A DNA stretch of 64,000 nucleotides from a virus. Below the pieces are notes generated by a model. The model did not search any database. It had not been told where the DNA came from and saw only the letters and a list, made by a program, of their open reading frames with translations. The stretch is from IMG/VR virus record IMGVR_UViG_3300031951_000041, positions 53,857 to 117,856 of that record; one strand, given 5' to 3'. Made by a program: the position numbers and the translations under genes. This document shows positions 54,042 to 64,000 of the stretch, one piece after another (within the stretch, counting starts at the first letter, position 1; each line of letters begins with the position of its first letter).

Positions 54042-54953
54042 ATGGAAGTAGAAAATATGAGTAAGAATCAAAGACAAATTCAGATCAACGTTGAAGAATT
54101 GCGTAAGAATAAATTCTTCATCGCCACTCCTTGTTATGGTGGTCAGTTAAACGAACCGTACTTCCGTTCTGTCATCAAGATGATGACATTCTTTAATCAG
54201 CATCAAGTACCTCTAGCATTTGGTACTATTGCTAACGAATCGCTAGTAACACGCGCACGTAATGTGCTAGTAGCTTACTTCCTTAACTCCGATTATACAC
54301 ATCTACTCTTCATCGATGCTGATATTGAGTTTCAAGTAGAAGATGTTCTTAAACTATACTACCATGATAGAGATGTAGTGGTTGGTGCTTATCCTAAAAA
54401 GGGTGTTGCATGGCAGCGTATTAAAGAAACCATGCAGGATAGTAATTTTAAAGACAAGCAATTGTCTGATAAAGAGATTGCTGCCTTTGGTTCTGACTAT
54501 GCTATTAACTTCAAGTTTGTAGATAAAGAGGCAAAGTCTGTTGCTGTAGATCGTGGAGTAATTAAACTACATGATGCAGGGACCGGCTTTATGATGATTA
54601 AGAGAGACGCAATTCTTAAAATGATCAAAGCCTATCCTGAGCTAAGATACAACAACGATGTTGCTCTAGGTAATACTGATCTAGGTGATAATTTCTATGC
54701 CTTATTCGATACTATGATCGATCCTATTGATCGTCGTTATCTATCAGAAGATTATACCTTCTGTCGTCGTTGGCAAGAACTAGGTGGTGATATCTGGCTT
54801 GACCCTTCTATCTCGCTTAACCACTATGGTCACTTCTGCTTCCAGGGTAATCCTCAGGCTATCATTCAATTCGGGCCTCCTATTGAGACAACACAACCTG
54901 TTCGTCAAGATATTAAGACCATTGACCTCCCTGACGAGCTAGAGCGCGCTTAA
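54042..54953 (+). CDS. Glycosyltransferase-like protein (GT-A fold)
   Basis: 303 residues, ATG behind TTGGAG. FFIATPCYGGQLNEPYFRSV, then ANESLVTRARNVLVAYFLNS and HLLFIDADIEFQVEDVLKL (D-A-D at 92-94, the metal/nucleotide-sugar motif), VVGAYPKKGVAWQRIKE and the acceptor-side LHDAGTGFMMIKRDAILKM and YLSEDYTFCRRWQELGGDIW. These form the GT-A pattern of glycosyltransferases common in T4-like cyanophages. Acceptor unknown: virion protein, DNA or host surface. Lying between capsid/tube genes and uvsY, it gives no strong hint. Confidence 0.72.
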   Translation: MEVENMSKNQRQIQINVEELRKNKFFIATPCYGGQLNEPYFRSVIKMMTFFNQHQVPLAFGTIANESLVTRARNVLVAYFLNSDYTHLLFIDADIEFQVEDVLKLYYHDRDVVVGAYPKKGVAWQRIKETMQDSNFKDKQLSDKEIAAFGSDYAINFKFVDKEAKSVAVDRGVIKLHDAGTGFMMIKRDAILKMIKAYPELRYNNDVALGNTDLGDNFYALFDTMIDPIDRRYLSEDYTFCRRWQELGGDIWLDPSISLNHYGHFCFQGNPQAIIQFGPPIETTQPVRQDIKTIDLPDELERA

Positions 54954-57941: not shown

Positions 57942-58775
57942 ATGTCAAAGATTAAAGTCGCGGAGTTATTTTACTCCATTCAAGGTGAAGGTCGCTATAT
58001 GGGCGTACCTTCTGTCTTCCTAAGAACCTTCGGATGTAACTTCAAATGTGAAGGTTTCGGTATGCCTAAAGGTGAAAGGACCGATGAGTATCTTAAAGTT
58101 AACCCTGATAGTTACAAATCTTACCAGGATCTTCCTCTTGTATCTACTGGCTGTGATTCTTACGCTTCTTGGGATCCTCGCTTTAAGCACTTATCCCCTG
58201 TTCTGGATAGTGAAGCAATTGCACAAGCCATTATCGAAATGCTTCCGCATAAAAGATGGAAAGATGAACATCTAGTTATTACTGGTGGTGAGCCTCTATT
58301 AGGATGGCAAAAAGCTTATCCTGATTTACTAAGCCATAGACTTATGTTAGGTCTTAAAGAAGTTACTTTTGAGACTAACGGTACTCAAGAGCTGTCTAGC
58401 GAGTTTAGAAAATATCTAACTAACTCTTTTAATTACGACGAAATAACTTTTTCAGTTTCACCTAAACTATCTGTATCAGGTGAGAAGTGGGAAGAGGCTA
58501 TCAAGCCAGAAGTTGTTCGTGAATATGAAAAGGTTGGTTACACCTATCTTAAGTTTGTCGTTGCTACAGAAGAAGACGCGGAAGAAGCGCAAAAGGCTGT
58601 CTTCCAATATCAAAGTGCAGGTTTTAGTGGCCCGGTTTATTTAATGCCTGTAGGTGGTGTAGAATCTGTATACCACATGAATAATAGAAAAGTAGCTGAA
58701 TTAGCTATGAATAAGGGTTTTAGGTACTCAGATAGATTACAGGTACCTCTTTTTAAAAATGAATGGGGTACATAA
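57942..58775 (+). CDS. queE: QueE, 7-carboxy-7-deazaguanine synthase (radical SAM)
   Basis: 277 residues. QueE converts 6-carboxy-tetrahydropterin to 7-carboxy-7-deazaguanine. Visible: AELFYSIQGEGRYMGVPSVF, LRTFGCNFKC, VITGGEPLLGWQ, FETNGTQ and FSVSPKLSVSG, with a C-terminal LMPVGGVESVY. The iron-sulfur motif is unusual: C32 and C36 are close, but the third ligand is C71 (STGCDSYASWD), so 34 residues are inserted where CX3CX2C is canonical. AGGAG lies 5 bases before the ATG. First gene of the 7-deazaguanine cluster. Confidence 0.9.
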   Translation: MSKIKVAELFYSIQGEGRYMGVPSVFLRTFGCNFKCEGFGMPKGERTDEYLKVNPDSYKSYQDLPLVSTGCDSYASWDPRFKHLSPVLDSEAIAQAIIEMLPHKRWKDEHLVITGGEPLLGWQKAYPDLLSHRLMLGLKEVTFETNGTQELSSEFRKYLTNSFNYDEITFSVSPKLSVSGEKWEEAIKPEVVREYEKVGYTYLKFVVATEEDAEEAQKAVFQYQSAGFSGPVYLMPVGGVESVYHMNNRKVAELAMNKGFRYSDRLQVPLFKNEWGT

Positions 58776-58960: not shown

Positions 58961-59638
58961 ATGTCATTACAAGTCGGTAAAACAGATCCAGAGCTAGGTT
59001 ATAAGATTGAGGAATATCTTCGTGAGAAGGGTGTACATACACCTACTATCATCGATAAGCTTAATGTAAAAGAAAAGTCGAAGATTAACAAGATCGAAAA
59101 GCACTTTGCTGCTATTATGGATATTCTTGGTCTTGATCGTGAAGATGACTCATTGACTGATACTCCTCTGCGAGTAGCTAAGATGTATGTAAATGAAATC
59201 TTCTGGGGTTTGAAACCAGAGAACTTTCCTAAATGTACTGTCATCGAGAACAAGATGGGGTACGATGAAATGGTTATCGAGAAGGACATTACACTAATGT
59301 CTAACTGTGAACACCATTTTGTTACTATTGATGGTAAGGCCCATGTGGCTTATATTCCTAAAGGTAAAGTATTAGGTTTATCTAAACTTAATCGTATCGT
59401 TGAATATTTTGCACGTAGACCTCAAGTACAGGAACGTATTGCAGAACAAATCTATCATGCACTAGCGTTTATTCTGGGTACAGATGATATTGCTGTTGTA
59501 ATTGAAGGTACACACTACTGTGTAAAGAGCAGAGGTGTAGAAGATCATTCGTCTTATACCTACACAGCTAAGCTTGGTGGTTGTTTTAGAAGTGAACCAG
59601 AAGCACGTGCTGAGTTTATGACCTTGATTAAAAAATAA
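58961..59638 (+). CDS. folE: FolE, GTP cyclohydrolase I
   Basis: 225 residues. It converts GTP to dihydroneopterin triphosphate, the first step toward 7-deazaguanines and folate. Landmarks: [24 protein letters not shown] (116-119, zinc Cys and catalytic His), [30 protein letters not shown] and [12 protein letters not shown] (C187, second zinc Cys). The zinc and substrate residues of type I enzymes are intact. It directly follows the DUF2061 gene without a gap. Confidence 0.95.
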
Positions 59639-59640
59639 TT

Positions 59641-60009
59641 ATGAATCGATATATGAGGGGTGCTAAGATATACTTAGCAGAATTCACCGATAAGGTAAAT
59701 GGTGATACATTTTTAAAATTTGGTTACACAGGTTATAAAGATGCTGCTGATAGATTTCGTTTTGAGCCAGAGCAATACTCAAAGTGGGATATACGTATTC
59801 TTTGCACCGCTTATCATCCAGACAAAAGTGTTATTGAGCAAACAGAAGAGAGATTGAAGAAAAAATATCCTAAGAATTTTTGGTTAGAAGAAAAAATTGT
59901 AGGGGTAACTGAAATAGTTAAGATGAGCAAATCTACTAGATACGCAGCTATTCAGGAAGTTCGTAATCTTAATGAGCAATGGAAAAAAATATATGTTAAT
60001 CAGCCATGA
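59641..60009 (+). CDS. Small protein with possible GIY-YIG/T5orf172-like fold
   Basis: 122 residues. KIYLAEFTDKVNGDTFLKFG then YTGYKDAADRFRFEPEQYSK, WDIRILCTAYHPDKSVIEQT and EERLKKKYPKNFW. The order of a short strand, FG-x-T, a D-A-x-x-RF helix, a second strand and an E-x-x-L helix is reminiscent of GIY-YIG or T5orf172 nucleases. The canonical GIY and YIG triplets are not clear, so this is tentative. Its 3' end overlaps the TGT-like gene. Confidence 0.5.
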   Translation: MNRYMRGAKIYLAEFTDKVNGDTFLKFGYTGYKDAADRFRFEPEQYSKWDIRILCTAYHPDKSVIEQTEERLKKKYPKNFWLEEKIVGVTEIVKMSKSTRYAAIQEVRNLNEQWKKIYVNQP

Positions 60010-60787
60010 AGTACCACTATCTTTACTAGGAAAATCTATAGCATTTAATGATTATGACTATGCTCTAGTTCATCTGTTTGAAACAGAGCCACTATACTAT
60101 AAGTTTTTTGAGGAGTCACTAGCTCAAGGAAGAAAAGTTATCTTAGATAACTCGGTGTTTGAATTAGGTGAAGCTTTTAACATGAATACGTTTGCAAAAT
60201 ATGTTAACCAGCTTAAACCTACAGAGTATATTATACCAGATGTTCTAGAGAATATGGAAAGAACAATTGGTAATGCTATGATGTTTAAAGAGCTATTCCC
60301 TGATCTACCAGGAAAATCTATTGGTGTCGTTCAAGGCAAAAATTATAGGGATCTAGTTACATGTTATGAGGAACTAGATATACTAGGTGTAGATAAAATT
60401 GCTTTTTCATTTGACTATAGTTATTATGAAGATTTATATAAGCACCCTAACAAATGGATGTCCTTTACACTAGGTAGAGTACAAACACTAACGAGAATGT
60501 TAAATGAAGGAATTATTAACAAGGATAAACCACATCACCTACTGGGTTGTTCACTACCTATCGAATTCTTGTTTTATAGACAAGGGTTCGAATGGATTGA
60601 GACCATGGATACTTCCAGCCCTGTGGTTCATGGGCTTCTTAATACTCTTTACGAGCCTGGTGGTTTGGTTGATAAGCAGTCCATTAAACTGGTCGACTTA
60701 TTATATTCCGTACCCGATCATGAGCAGATGAGTTTTATTCAAGCAAACATTAATTACTTTAGATCGTATGTAAAAGGTACAGAGTAA
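59993..60787 (+). CDS. TGT-like / DpdA-type base-exchange enzyme
   Basis: 264 residues from ATG 59993, which has GGA 9 bases upstream; ATG 59972 is also in frame (271 residues) but without a ribosome site. The TGT TIM-barrel landmarks are in order: VILDNSVFELG (DNS 52-54, where TGT has DSGGF), IIPDVLENM (D83), IGVVQGKNYRDLV (where TGT has GIVQGG-x-Y-x-DLR), IAFSFDYS, HHLLGCSLPIEF (where TGT has YLMGVGKPEDL) and ETMDTSSPVVHG (D206 at the position of the TGT nucleophile). The zinc Cys/His motif of tRNA TGT is absent, as in the short phage DpdA type. Predicted to exchange guanine in DNA for preQ0/preQ1. Confidence 0.72.
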   Translation: MLISHEVPLSLLGKSIAFNDYDYALVHLFETEPLYYKFFEESLAQGRKVILDNSVFELGEAFNMNTFAKYVNQLKPTEYIIPDVLENMERTIGNAMMFKELFPDLPGKSIGVVQGKNYRDLVTCYEELDILGVDKIAFSFDYSYYEDLYKHPNKWMSFTLGRVQTLTRMLNEGIINKDKPHHLLGCSLPIEFLFYRQGFEWIETMDTSSPVVHGLLNTLYEPGGLVDKQSIKLVDLLYSVPDHEQMSFIQANINYFRSYVKGTE

Positions 60788-61350
60788 TGTACTGGATTGC
60801 TTTTTTTAGTCAAACAGGATCAGAGATAGTTCATCTATCTAAAGAACTAGGTCGCTCACCTGATTTAATTCTTACTAATAACAAAGATGTTTCAACATAT
60901 CACCCTGATATGGTACTTCTAAGTATACCAATGTACGTAGCAGGGCATGATGGTCTAATGCAATTTCTTCGTGATAATTATAATAACCCTAAAGAAGTAC
61001 TGATTACTCTACACGGGTATTTAAGAATTATACCACCAGACGTTTGTGAACGATTTGAAATCTATAACGGCCATCCCGGCTACATTACAGCATACCCTGA
61101 ACTTAAAGGTAAAGACCCACAAGTAAAAGCTTGGGAAGCCAGGCATCGTTGGGTAGGTTGCGTTATACACAAAGTAACAGCAGGTGTAGATGAAGGTCCT
61201 ATTGTCGACCAGACAGGCGTACCGAATACAGCTAATTCATTAGACGAATTGTATAGCCTATTAAAGAGAAAATCGCTATACTTATGGGAAAAGTTTATGT
61301 GGGGAAAGTTAAATGAAAATAGCGATAAGCGGCGCTCAATCAGTAGGTAA
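60787..61350 (+). CDS. Formyltransferase (PurN/Fmt-like)
   Basis: 187 residues, overlapping the TGT-like stop (TAATG). LITLHGYLRIIP, then YNGHPGYITAYPELKGKDPQ, GCVIHKVTAGVDEGPIVDQ. These are the formyl-transferase N-terminal-domain motifs: catalytic N94 and H96 in NGHPG, and D135 in VDEGPIV, with the GKDPQ loop. The donor would be 10-formyl-tetrahydrofolate. In this operon the acceptor is likely the aminomethyl of preQ1 base or nucleotide in DNA, as reported for a formylated 7-deazaguanine in another phage (from memory). Methionyl-tRNA or sugar formylation cannot be excluded. Confidence 0.78.
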   Translation: MYWIAFFSQTGSEIVHLSKELGRSPDLILTNNKDVSTYHPDMVLLSIPMYVAGHDGLMQFLRDNYNNPKEVLITLHGYLRIIPPDVCERFEIYNGHPGYITAYPELKGKDPQVKAWEARHRWVGCVIHKVTAGVDEGPIVDQTGVPNTANSLDELYSLLKRKSLYLWEKFMWGKLNENSDKRRSISR

Positions 61351-61870
61351 GACTACATTAATTAATGCTTTACGTTCTGAAGAAGCATTAAAGCAGTATA
61401 CCTTTTGTACCGAAGTGACTAGACGTGTTAAGGGTTATGGGTTAAACATAAATGAAGAAGGTGATGACATTACGCAGAGATTGATAATGCAAGAACATAT
61501 TGTTAATGTCTTTATGAACGACAATATGATATCAGATAGATGTGCATTAGACGGTATTGTTTACTCTCACTACTTAGCAGAAAATAAAAAAATAACTCAG
61601 AAGACATATGATTTTGCTGATAACATATTCAACAAACTCATGCCAAAGTATGACCTAGTCTTTTATATTCCACCAGAATTTGAAATAGAAGATGACGGAA
61701 CAAGAAGTATTAATAGGCATTTTAGAGATAGAATTGTAACATTATTTGATAGTTATATTAAAGAAAAACAATTAACTACCGTCTACCTAGTAGGTTCAGT
61801 TAGAGAAAGAGTAGATACGGTACTTAAATATATAAAGGATGTTGAGCATGAGCAATCAAGAAGAACTTAA
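61313..61870 (+). CDS. P-loop kinase-like protein (AAA_28/NadR-like)
   Basis: 185 residues starting within the end of the formyltransferase gene, behind GGGGAAAG. IAISGAQSVGKTTLINALRS is a Walker A (GAQSVGKT, 7-14), followed by TEVTRRVKGYGLNINEEGDD, ISDRCALDGIVYSHY (DR motif), a DLVFYIPPEF strand and RDRIVTLFDSYIKEKQLT. This is the layout of AAA_28/NadR-type or thymidylate-kinase-like small kinases. It may phosphorylate a nucleoside or nucleotide in the pathway or in general nucleotide supply; the substrate is unknown. Confidence 0.68.
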   Translation: MKIAISGAQSVGKTTLINALRSEEALKQYTFCTEVTRRVKGYGLNINEEGDDITQRLIMQEHIVNVFMNDNMISDRCALDGIVYSHYLAENKKITQKTYDFADNIFNKLMPKYDLVFYIPPEFEIEDDGTRSINRHFRDRIVTLFDSYIKEKQLTTVYLVGSVRERVDTVLKYIKDVEHEQSRRT

Positions 61871-62771
61871 TAAGCTAGTATCAGTTCACTTAGGTAAGGC
61901 AGGTGACGGTACGGTTGTAAAACCTTATGTTACACCTGACGATGTAGATCCTACTCTACTAGTAGCTGTACCAAGACATTTAAACAGGACGCAATATGAT
62001 ATTCAAGAAGATGACTTACCGTTTGTGGGAGTCGATGCGTGGAACGCTTATGAGTTCTCAACTCTTTTGGATAATGGTTTTCCCGTCTCTGGTTGGCTTA
62101 AGTTTGTCTATGATTCTGATTCCCCTAATATTGTGGAGTCTAAATCAGTAAAGCTATACCTTAACTCTTATAACATGGCGCGTCTCATTACATCTACATC
62201 TGACTTCTGGATGGTAGAAGATAGGATTGCCAGAGACTTGAGTGATGCTACCGGTGGTGAAGTAGAAGTATATGCGTTCTTTGGAGATGTAGATACTACA
62301 AGACCTATTAGTAGTGATTTTGTATCTCTCGAATCTTACTGTAATGTAGAAAAAATGCAGTTTACAGACTATAATGAGTCTGCCAGTATTTTAGAAGTTG
62401 TTCCTTCTATTGGTCGTTATGAAAGATGGCGTTCACATTCTCTACGTTCAAATTGTCGAGTAACTAATCAACCGGATTGGGGTGATGTGTATGTACATAT
62501 TAAAGGTGATAAGGCAGTTACTCCAGAATCTCTATTGCAATATATTGTTAGCATGCGCAAAGAGAACCACTTCCACGAAGAAATTTGTGAATGTATTTAC
62601 AAACGTTTGTGGGATCTATTACAACCCGAGGAACTATTCGTGGCATGCCTCTATACTCGGAGAGGTGGTATTGATATTAACCCTGTACGAGCTTCAAGCC
62701 ATGATGTGCTCTACACGTACGGTAACATAGCCAGTTCAATTACAGCATGTACTAAAACAGCTAGACAGTGA
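61848..62771 (+). CDS. queF: QueF, NADPH-dependent preQ0 reductase (long form)
   Basis: 307 residues from the second ATG (61848); ATG 61839 lies directly against AAGG and would have no spacing. QueF reduces the nitrile of preQ0 to the aminomethyl of preQ1. Landmarks match the E. coli long form: YEFSTLLDNGFPVSGWLKF, SPNIVESKSVKLYLNSYNM (ESKS 97-100), LRSNCRVTNQPDWGDVYV (catalytic C203, D210), LLQYIVSMRKENHFHEEICE and YTRRGGIDINPVRAS. Its presence points to preQ1 rather than preQ0 as end product. It overlaps the kinase gene by 23 bases. Confidence 0.93.
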   Translation: MSNQEELNKLVSVHLGKAGDGTVVKPYVTPDDVDPTLLVAVPRHLNRTQYDIQEDDLPFVGVDAWNAYEFSTLLDNGFPVSGWLKFVYDSDSPNIVESKSVKLYLNSYNMARLITSTSDFWMVEDRIARDLSDATGGEVEVYAFFGDVDTTRPISSDFVSLESYCNVEKMQFTDYNESASILEVVPSIGRYERWRSHSLRSNCRVTNQPDWGDVYVHIKGDKAVTPESLLQYIVSMRKENHFHEEICECIYKRLWDLLQPEELFVACLYTRRGGIDINPVRASSHDVLYTYGNIASSITACTKTARQ

Positions 62772-62778
62772 GGATATT

Positions 62779-63249
62779 ATGGGATTAGTTGCCTATGCAG
62801 AAAATGAATTAGATCGTATCGGTATGACCGATGACGGAGATATGAATGGTATTATGCGTAAACATCTCCTTCATATGGTACATGAGTTCGCTGAAGAAGG
62901 TCACTCTGGGTTTTCAGCCAGTTATGCCTTACAATGTCTTAAAAAACTTCTTAACTTTAAACCACTATCACCATTGACAGGTGAAGATGATGAATGGTCA
63001 GAAGTTACACAAAGGAGTGGATACCCACATTTCCAAAATAAACGTTGTGGTTCTGTATTCAAAGATGGTAAGAATGGTGAAGCATATGACATCGATGGTA
63101 AGGTATTTTGGGAATGGTATATTGATAAAGAAACTGGTGAAAAACAAAAATCATACTATACCTGTTTTGAATCTAGAGTACCTGTAACTTTTCCTTATGT
63201 AGTGCCCGACGAGCCAATTTATGAATATAGAGAAAGTGGTGCAGAATGA
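62779..63249 (+). CDS. Conserved phage protein, unknown
   Basis: 156 residues. LVAYAENELDRIGMTDDGDM, then HMVHEFAEEGHSGFSASYAL, LKKLLNFKPLSPLTGEDDEW and a C-terminal beta region WYIDKETGEKQKSYYTCFES. The GHSGFSA and PLTGEDDEW motifs recur in small phage proteins of unknown function. It sits between queF and the MazG-like gene, and its stop overlaps the next ATG. Not recognised. Confidence 0.65.
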   Translation: MGLVAYAENELDRIGMTDDGDMNGIMRKHLLHMVHEFAEEGHSGFSASYALQCLKKLLNFKPLSPLTGEDDEWSEVTQRSGYPHFQNKRCGSVFKDGKNGEAYDIDGKVFWEWYIDKETGEKQKSYYTCFESRVPVTFPYVVPDEPIYEYRESGAE

Positions 63250-63458
63250 AGTCACCAGATAATAATGTAAATGAAATATGTGAACAGTTTGTAACTCGTT
63301 CGCAACATGGGTTTAATAAGTACGGGGTAACTACTGAACGTACTGACTTAGACTTTGATCAATGGATACAGCATCTGAAAGAAGAACTTATGGATGCTGT
63401 AGTTTATATTCATCGTATACAAAAAGAAAGAACTAAGTACAGAGATGACATTAAATGA
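63246..63458 (+). CDS. Small MazG-like / NTP-pyrophosphatase-type protein
   Basis: 70 residues. VTRSQHGFNKYGVTTERTDL, then DFDQWIQHLKEELMDAVVYI. The helical EEL-x-DA-x-x-Y core resembles MazG/all-alpha NTP pyrophosphohydrolases. Only one helical pair is present, so it would need to work as an oligomer or be a regulatory remnant. The stop overlaps queC. Confidence 0.5.
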   Translation: MKSPDNNVNEICEQFVTRSQHGFNKYGVTTERTDLDFDQWIQHLKEELMDAVVYIHRIQKERTKYRDDIK

Positions 63459-64000
63459 CGCCCTAGACCTTTTACCAGATACTTCCGGATGTGTAGTTAT
63501 TTTATCCGGTGGTATGGATTCTACTATTGCTATGAGATTGGCTGTAGAAAAATATGGTAGTAAAAACGTATCTGCCTTAACTTTTGATTATGGTCAAAAG
63601 CAATCAAAAGAGATTACTATGGCAGGTATTTCAACTGCTATACTTCGTGTTACTCATAAAGTAATAGATGCTTCGTTCTTAGGTGATATATCTAAAGGCT
63701 TTTCAGCCAATGTAGATAAAGATATCGCCATGCCAACGATTAAAGAAGTGTTAGGTGATCCTAGACCAAAGACATATGTACCTAATCGTAATATGATCTT
63801 AATGTCTATTGCAGCAGCCTATGCTGAAACGAGAAACGTAGATACTATTCTTTGTGGCTTACAGGTACATGACGAGTATGGTTATCATGATACTACTCAA
63901 AGGTGGGTTAATAAAGTAAACGATCTACTATCAGAAAATAGAATTATAAAAATTAAACTGGTAGCACCGTTTAGTAAACTATCCAAGTATGATGAGTTAC
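63445..64000 (+). CDS. queC: QueC, 7-cyano-7-deazaguanine (preQ0) synthase, 3' end cut off
   Basis: The first 185 residues are in the window. QueC turns 7-carboxy-7-deazaguanine into preQ0 using ATP and ammonia. VVILSGGMDSTIAMRLAVEK carries the PP-loop SGGMDS (21-26), followed by NVSALTFDYGQKQSKEITMA, KTYVPNRNMILMSIAAAYAE and TILCGLQVHDEYGYHDTTQR. The C-terminal zinc cysteines lie beyond 64000. It overlaps the MazG-like gene by 14 bases. Confidence 0.93.
   Translation, partial: MTLNDALDLLPDTSGCVVILSGGMDSTIAMRLAVEKYGSKNVSALTFDYGQKQSKEITMAGISTAILRVTHKVIDASFLGDISKGFSANVDKDIAMPTIKEVLGDPRPKTYVPNRNMILMSIAAAYAETRNVDTILCGLQVHDEYGYHDTTQRWVNKVNDLLSENRIIKIKLVAPFSKLSKYDEL

Follow-up and report, generated by a model that had tools for sequence, protein, structure and literature searches.

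A predicted preQ1 formyltransferase gene overlapping a DpdA3-type transglycosylase gene in an uncultured phage

Genes at the locus

The window, by which we mean the whole stretch of DNA analysed, is the final 64 kb of a 117,856-base virus record, and one of its strands carries, in this order, genes for QueE, a DUF2061-type small protein, FolE, a small ORF, a transglycosylase, a formyltransferase (FT), a P-loop kinase, QueF, a Tad3 homologue and QueC. Megablast of the 57.9-64 kb region against 50,697 phage records gave no match, so no close isolate is known. The features that bear on the function of the FT are as follows.

57942..58775, + strand: QueE, 7-carboxy-7-deazaguanine synthase (PHROG QueE-like, E 2.8e-54)
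58961..59638, + strand: FolE, GTP cyclohydrolase I (Pfam, E 2e-60)
59993..60787, + strand: DpdA3-type DNA-guanine transglycosylase (start set by homology; longest ORF from 59972)
60785..60789, + strand: TAATG stop/start overlap joining the transglycosylase and FT genes (seen in the sequence; 20 of 70 loci alike)
60787..61350, + strand: FT, presumably of the DpdN kind, 187 aa, a proposed preQ1 / dPreQ1 N-formyltransferase (Formyl_trans_N match, triad, model, tree)
60823..60825, + strand: E13 codon, in place of PurN N13 of the GAR-phosphate loop (E in 47 of 47 FTs; N in 28 of 30 PurN-type sequences)
61066..61074, + strand: N94-G95-H96 codons, catalytic N and H (aligned to E. coli PurN N106/H108; 47 of 47)
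61105..61122, + strand: KGKDPQ motif, K107-Q112, family-specific and located after the catalytic N-x-H (invariant or almost invariant among FTs)
61189..61191, + strand: D135 codon, catalytic Asp (aligned to E. coli PurN D144; 47 of 47)
61313..61870, + strand: P-loop kinase of the NadR / deoxynucleoside-kinase type (AAA_28; conserved beside DpdA3)
61839..62771, + strand: QueF, preQ0-to-preQ1 nitrile reductase, two-module type (Pfam QueF_N and QueF above cut-off)
63445..64000, + strand: QueC, preQ0 synthase (Pfam, E 1.5e-37; truncated where the contig, and with it the window, ends)

The FT gene is an ATG-initiated ORF whose product matches Pfam Formyl_trans_N (PF00551) at 41.4 bits (cut-off 26.1, E 1.7e-10). 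Comparison with an 80%-identical copy (locus L008) indicates purifying selection (dS 0.860, dN 0.142), and from the dN/dS of about 0.17 we conclude that the gene is maintained. The initial annotation had claimed that the FT is coupled through TAATG to a TGT-like gene, and this is what we see: the transglycosylase stop codon TAA occupies 60785-60787 and has one base in common with the FT ATG (junction sequence ...GAGTAATGTAC...). Among the 70 loci in which both starts could be placed, the same 1-nt overlap recurs in 20, and in 64 the FT starts no more than about 35 nt from the transglycosylase stop, which argues that the coupling is not due to chance.

No Pfam match was obtained for the window transglycosylase, no NCBIfam family was found for it, and its profile matched nothing among PDB sequences; its link to TGT and DpdA came from fold comparison only. 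The top PDB folds for its model (pLDDT 95) are 7nq4 (TGT), 6rkt (TGT) and 7ui4 (a solved DpdA), and they include human and bacterial TGT. With the annotated DpdA of Flavobacterium phage immuto the protein shares 48% identity, and with a Campylobacter phage protein of the same PHROG (19058) it shares 43-45% over 90% of its length. We take the transglycosylase of the Campylobacter CP220 group to be DpdA3.

The two-module QueF of the window keeps ESKS, C206, D213 and H246-E247, all invariant across the 27 relatives aligned, and these residues correspond to the catalytic Cys and Asp and the NADPH motif of bacterial QueF; the score against NCBIfam TIGR03138 is 234 bits, under the equivalog cut-off of 293. 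Since the nitrile-reductase residues are kept, the enzyme should yield the primary amine preQ1, in agreement with the earlier proposal that the steps preceding the FT yield this amine. A QueF match in Bacillus phage BSP7 was discounted because it falls inside the FolE gene of that phage. QueD was not found within the window and is present in two other contigs whose FT protein is identical to that of the window.

Three further ORFs deserve mention. Between QueF and QueC, at 62779-63249, lies a homologue of Tad3 (PF25185, E 9e-40), which inhibits type I Thoeris defence, so that anti-defence and DNA-modification genes adjoin. The small ORF between FolE and the transglycosylase (59641-60009) has a weak match to the endonuclease family phrog_681 (E 2e-5), and an ORF within the structural gene region (54042-54953) has weak glycosyltransferase similarity (Anp1, E 5e-5, under the cut-off).

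Residues, fold and phylogeny of the formyltransferase

Alignment with E. coli PurN places FT residues N94, H96 and D135 at N106, H108 and D144, and all three are invariant in the 47 family members, as expected of the catalytic residues named in the initial annotation. Also retained are the folate-side loop (G87, M/L89 and R90 in E. coli PurN numbering) and H137 and G146 (same numbering). The substrate side, in contrast, has been exchanged: N13 is replaced by E and A86 by H in all 47 FTs, E173 by S in 46 and G9 by Q in 44. In PurN, N13 holds the GAR phosphate together with G11-S12. A further difference is the KGKDPQ segment, the first three residues of which (KGK) form an insert that is absent from 29 of 30 PurN-type sequences. 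Retention of the catalytic and folate residues combined with replacement of the acceptor side is what one would expect of a transferase that has changed its acceptor, and the conserved Glu at the PurN phosphate site might accommodate either an amine or a guanine analogue through its Watson-Crick edge.

The AlphaFold model of the FT (pLDDT 93) finds its best PDB folds among PurN enzymes, followed by ArnA, sugar enzymes and PurU. Phylogenetic comparison with PurN, Fmt and sugar formyltransferases, the check suggested at the outset, favoured the initial annotation. An IQ-TREE analysis with 94 sequences groups all 47 FTs in a single clade (support 100/100). This clade lies toward PurN and PurU in the tree but is distinct from bacterial PurN, from the cyanophage PurN clade, from PurU and from the Fmt/ArnA/sugar enzymes.

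This position bears directly on the possibility that the FT is a phage PurN that formylates GAR and boosts purine synthesis. The GenBank label of the immuto homologue ('phosphoribosylglycinamide formyltransferase'), the rank of PurN as both the best-scoring NCBIfam family and the top fold, and the occurrence in cyanophages of genes annotated as PurN all speak for such a role. The FT nevertheless scores 43.6 bits against the PurN equivalog TIGR00639, far below the cut-off of 150.1, branches away from both bacterial and cyanophage PurN, has lost the GAR-side residues N13 and E173 in essentially all members, and lies inside a preQ1/DpdA block in all but fragmentary loci, so that GAR formylation appears very improbable.

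We consider it just as improbable that the FT acts on an amino sugar (of a surface glycan or a DNA sugar) or on Met-tRNA. The protein ends after the catalytic domain, thus lacking the C-terminal part of Fmt and the sugar enzymes, and it does not cluster with them, although it belongs to the same superfamily and is weakly similar to sugar formyltransferases such as VioF and PseJ. A DegT-type aminotransferase, which could point to an amino sugar, is encoded by immuto and by a contig with an identical FT; in that contig, however, about 122 kb separate the DegT gene from the FT, and no such gene was found in 8 of 12 other phage records (82-230 kb) bearing FT or DpdA3.

The FT might instead hydrolyse formyl-THF, or bind preQ1 without being a transferase, and so tune folate or shield the amine; the fold that it has in common with PurU-like enzymes would allow this, transferase activity itself being a prediction. 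Against such a role, which we regard as highly unlikely, the FT has no ACT domain of the PurU kind, falls outside the PurU clade and carries the full triad in 47 of 47 members. The median pI of the FTs is 6.3, that is, not strongly basic; this neutral value lends no support to direct binding of DNA, and the charge argument decides nothing.

Distribution and association with QueF

A profile scan of IMG/VR found at least 563 stretches related to the FT among the first 599 candidates of the matches listed. The same kind of scan over 84,980 bacterial and archaeal genomes gave one match, in a contig of a Clostridiales MAG; since DNA polymerase and tail-type genes are found on it too, this contig most probably belongs to a phage. 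The family is thus effectively viral; a search of plasmids returned only partial matches of the PurN/PurU type. On the MAG contig, which is a fragment (locus L171, 786-2196), the transglycosylase and FT genes are followed by DNA polymerase I, and neither QueF nor the kinase was found nearby, a point against preQ1 as the acceptor, if one from an incomplete contig.

We scored gene content with profiles built here at loci reached through either the FT or the transglycosylase, counting the 121 that contain the transglycosylase and at least 3 kb downstream of it. The block transglycosylase-FT-kinase-QueF is complete in 113 of these 121 loci, a count that does not represent independent cases since the loci are partly redundant and stem from a restricted set of phage lineages; clustering at 88% left 46 FTs. 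FT and QueF occur together in 116 loci and are jointly absent from four, with one locus having FT alone and none QueF alone. Three loci have FT and QueF without the kinase (L074, L077 and L084, where the transglycosylase is kept and the kinase was not found in the stretch examined), four loci, all from Campylobacter phages, have only the kinase beside the transglycosylase, and the fragment L171 has only the FT beside it. In one phage lineage (L060:8550-8903, L057 and L049) the FT is longer by a C-terminal extension of about 100 residues, and this part matches PHROG 1485, of unknown function; a Pfam search of the extension in L060 and L049 was empty.

Isolated phages offer points of comparison. 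One is Flavobacterium phage vB_FspM_immuto_2-6A, whose FT (QQO91746) and DpdA (QQO91744) are 48-50% identical to the window proteins and which has the order DpdA-FT-kinase-QueF as in the window; it differs in that a small ORF parts DpdA from FT, the FT starting 156 nt past the DpdA stop, whereas the window has TAATG. With immuto as the positive control, the FT was not found in Dp-1 or HVTV-1, both of which have measured, unformylated dPreQ1. Campylobacter phages of the CP220 group, which are reported to contain the amide base dADG (PMC6884629), resemble the window in the 43-45% identity of their transglycosylase and in the adjoining kinase, but the complete CP220 genome was found to have neither QueF nor FT, unlike the window, which has both.

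The co-occurrence of FT and QueF across loci indicates that the FT tracks preQ1 production in phages of the DpdA3 type, and Dp-1, HVTV-1 and CP220 indicate that it is missing from phages whose known end product is plain preQ1 or the amide. Together with the separate clade, these patterns favour the suggestion in the initial annotation of a working transferase for the amine of preQ1, as far as comparison of genes can. As to the narrower part of that suggestion, dedication to the product of the neighbouring gene, the acceptor could be preQ1 in DNA, the free base or a nucleotide.

Proposed formylation of preQ1 and the order of steps

We propose that the FT is a 10-formyl-THF-dependent N-formyltransferase that caps the amine of preQ1 and so gives rise to 7-(formylaminomethyl)-7-deazaguanine in phage DNA, a reading to which we assign a probability of roughly 85%. 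In this pathway GTP would be converted to preQ0 by phage FolE, QueD, QueE and QueC, and QueF would reduce preQ0 to preQ1 (7-aminomethyl-7-deazaguanine). The adjacent DpdA3-type transglycosylase would put the deazaguanine in place of guanine, and the FT would formylate the primary amine of preQ1 with 10-formyl-THF as the formyl donor, leaving 7-(formylaminomethyl)-7-deazaguanine as the end product in DNA. We infer catalysis by the FT, preQ1 as its acceptor and protection from host nucleases; the formylated base in phage DNA probably acts as camouflage against bacterial defences.

Such a formylation step is not a new idea but one already published. Cui and colleagues reportedly described in 2023 a formylated base, fdPreQ1, in phage DNA, named a predicted dPreQ1 formyltransferase DpdN and defined DpdA3; DpdN is reportedly a phage formyltransferase encoded together with DpdA and QueF. 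The FT of the window is likewise a phage gene within a DpdA and QueF pathway, and it fits the description of DpdN in every feature tested, so that we regard it as of this known kind, likened by description and not by sequence. We accordingly take the FT to be a probable DpdN and its predicted product to be fdPreQ1. No difference from DpdN and fdPreQ1 as described was seen; the window gene comes from an uncultured phage lineage. To our knowledge, formylation of dPreQ1 by such a gene is a prediction, and we know of no in vitro reconstitution. The literature that we searched, outside which Cui et al. 2023 and a 2024 review lie, contained no mention of DpdA together with formyl. What is added here is the residue-level case against GAR, the near-exclusively viral distribution, the finding that FT and QueF almost always occur together or not at all, and the conservation of the kinase. 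The residues, phylogeny and co-occurrence support formylation as a step in the 7-deazaguanine DNA chemistry of phages; the step would be common, with more than 560 viral contig stretches among the matches listed, and almost exclusively viral.

At which level the amine would be formylated bears on how the block works. The tight link between the FT and the transglycosylase fits action on the product of the latter, and we would give about even odds to preQ1 already in DNA as the acceptor. The same operon also holds QueF and the kinase; we view the free preQ1 base on the one hand, and a preQ1 nucleoside or nucleotide on the other, as equally tentative candidates, each distinctly less than an even bet.

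The kinase, of the NadR / deoxynucleoside-kinase type, stands beside DpdA3 in nearly all relatives, including the Campylobacter phages that have no FT or QueF, and its substrate could be a modified deoxynucleotide. One conceivable route therefore runs at the nucleotide level and not after replication: DpdA3 would swap the base on a free deoxyguanosine nucleotide, the FT would cap the amine, the kinase would rebuild the triphosphate and the phage polymerase would insert it. We think this route unlikely; what keeps it alive is that the kinase goes with the transglycosylase also in phages that have neither FT nor QueF. According to PMC6884629, a route through modified dGTP was proposed earlier for Campylobacter phages in work cited there. 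The fixed block with its kinase makes the order of the steps (base, nucleotide or DNA) directly testable. The three loci with no kinase nearby (L074, L077 and L084) argue against a strict requirement for this enzyme.
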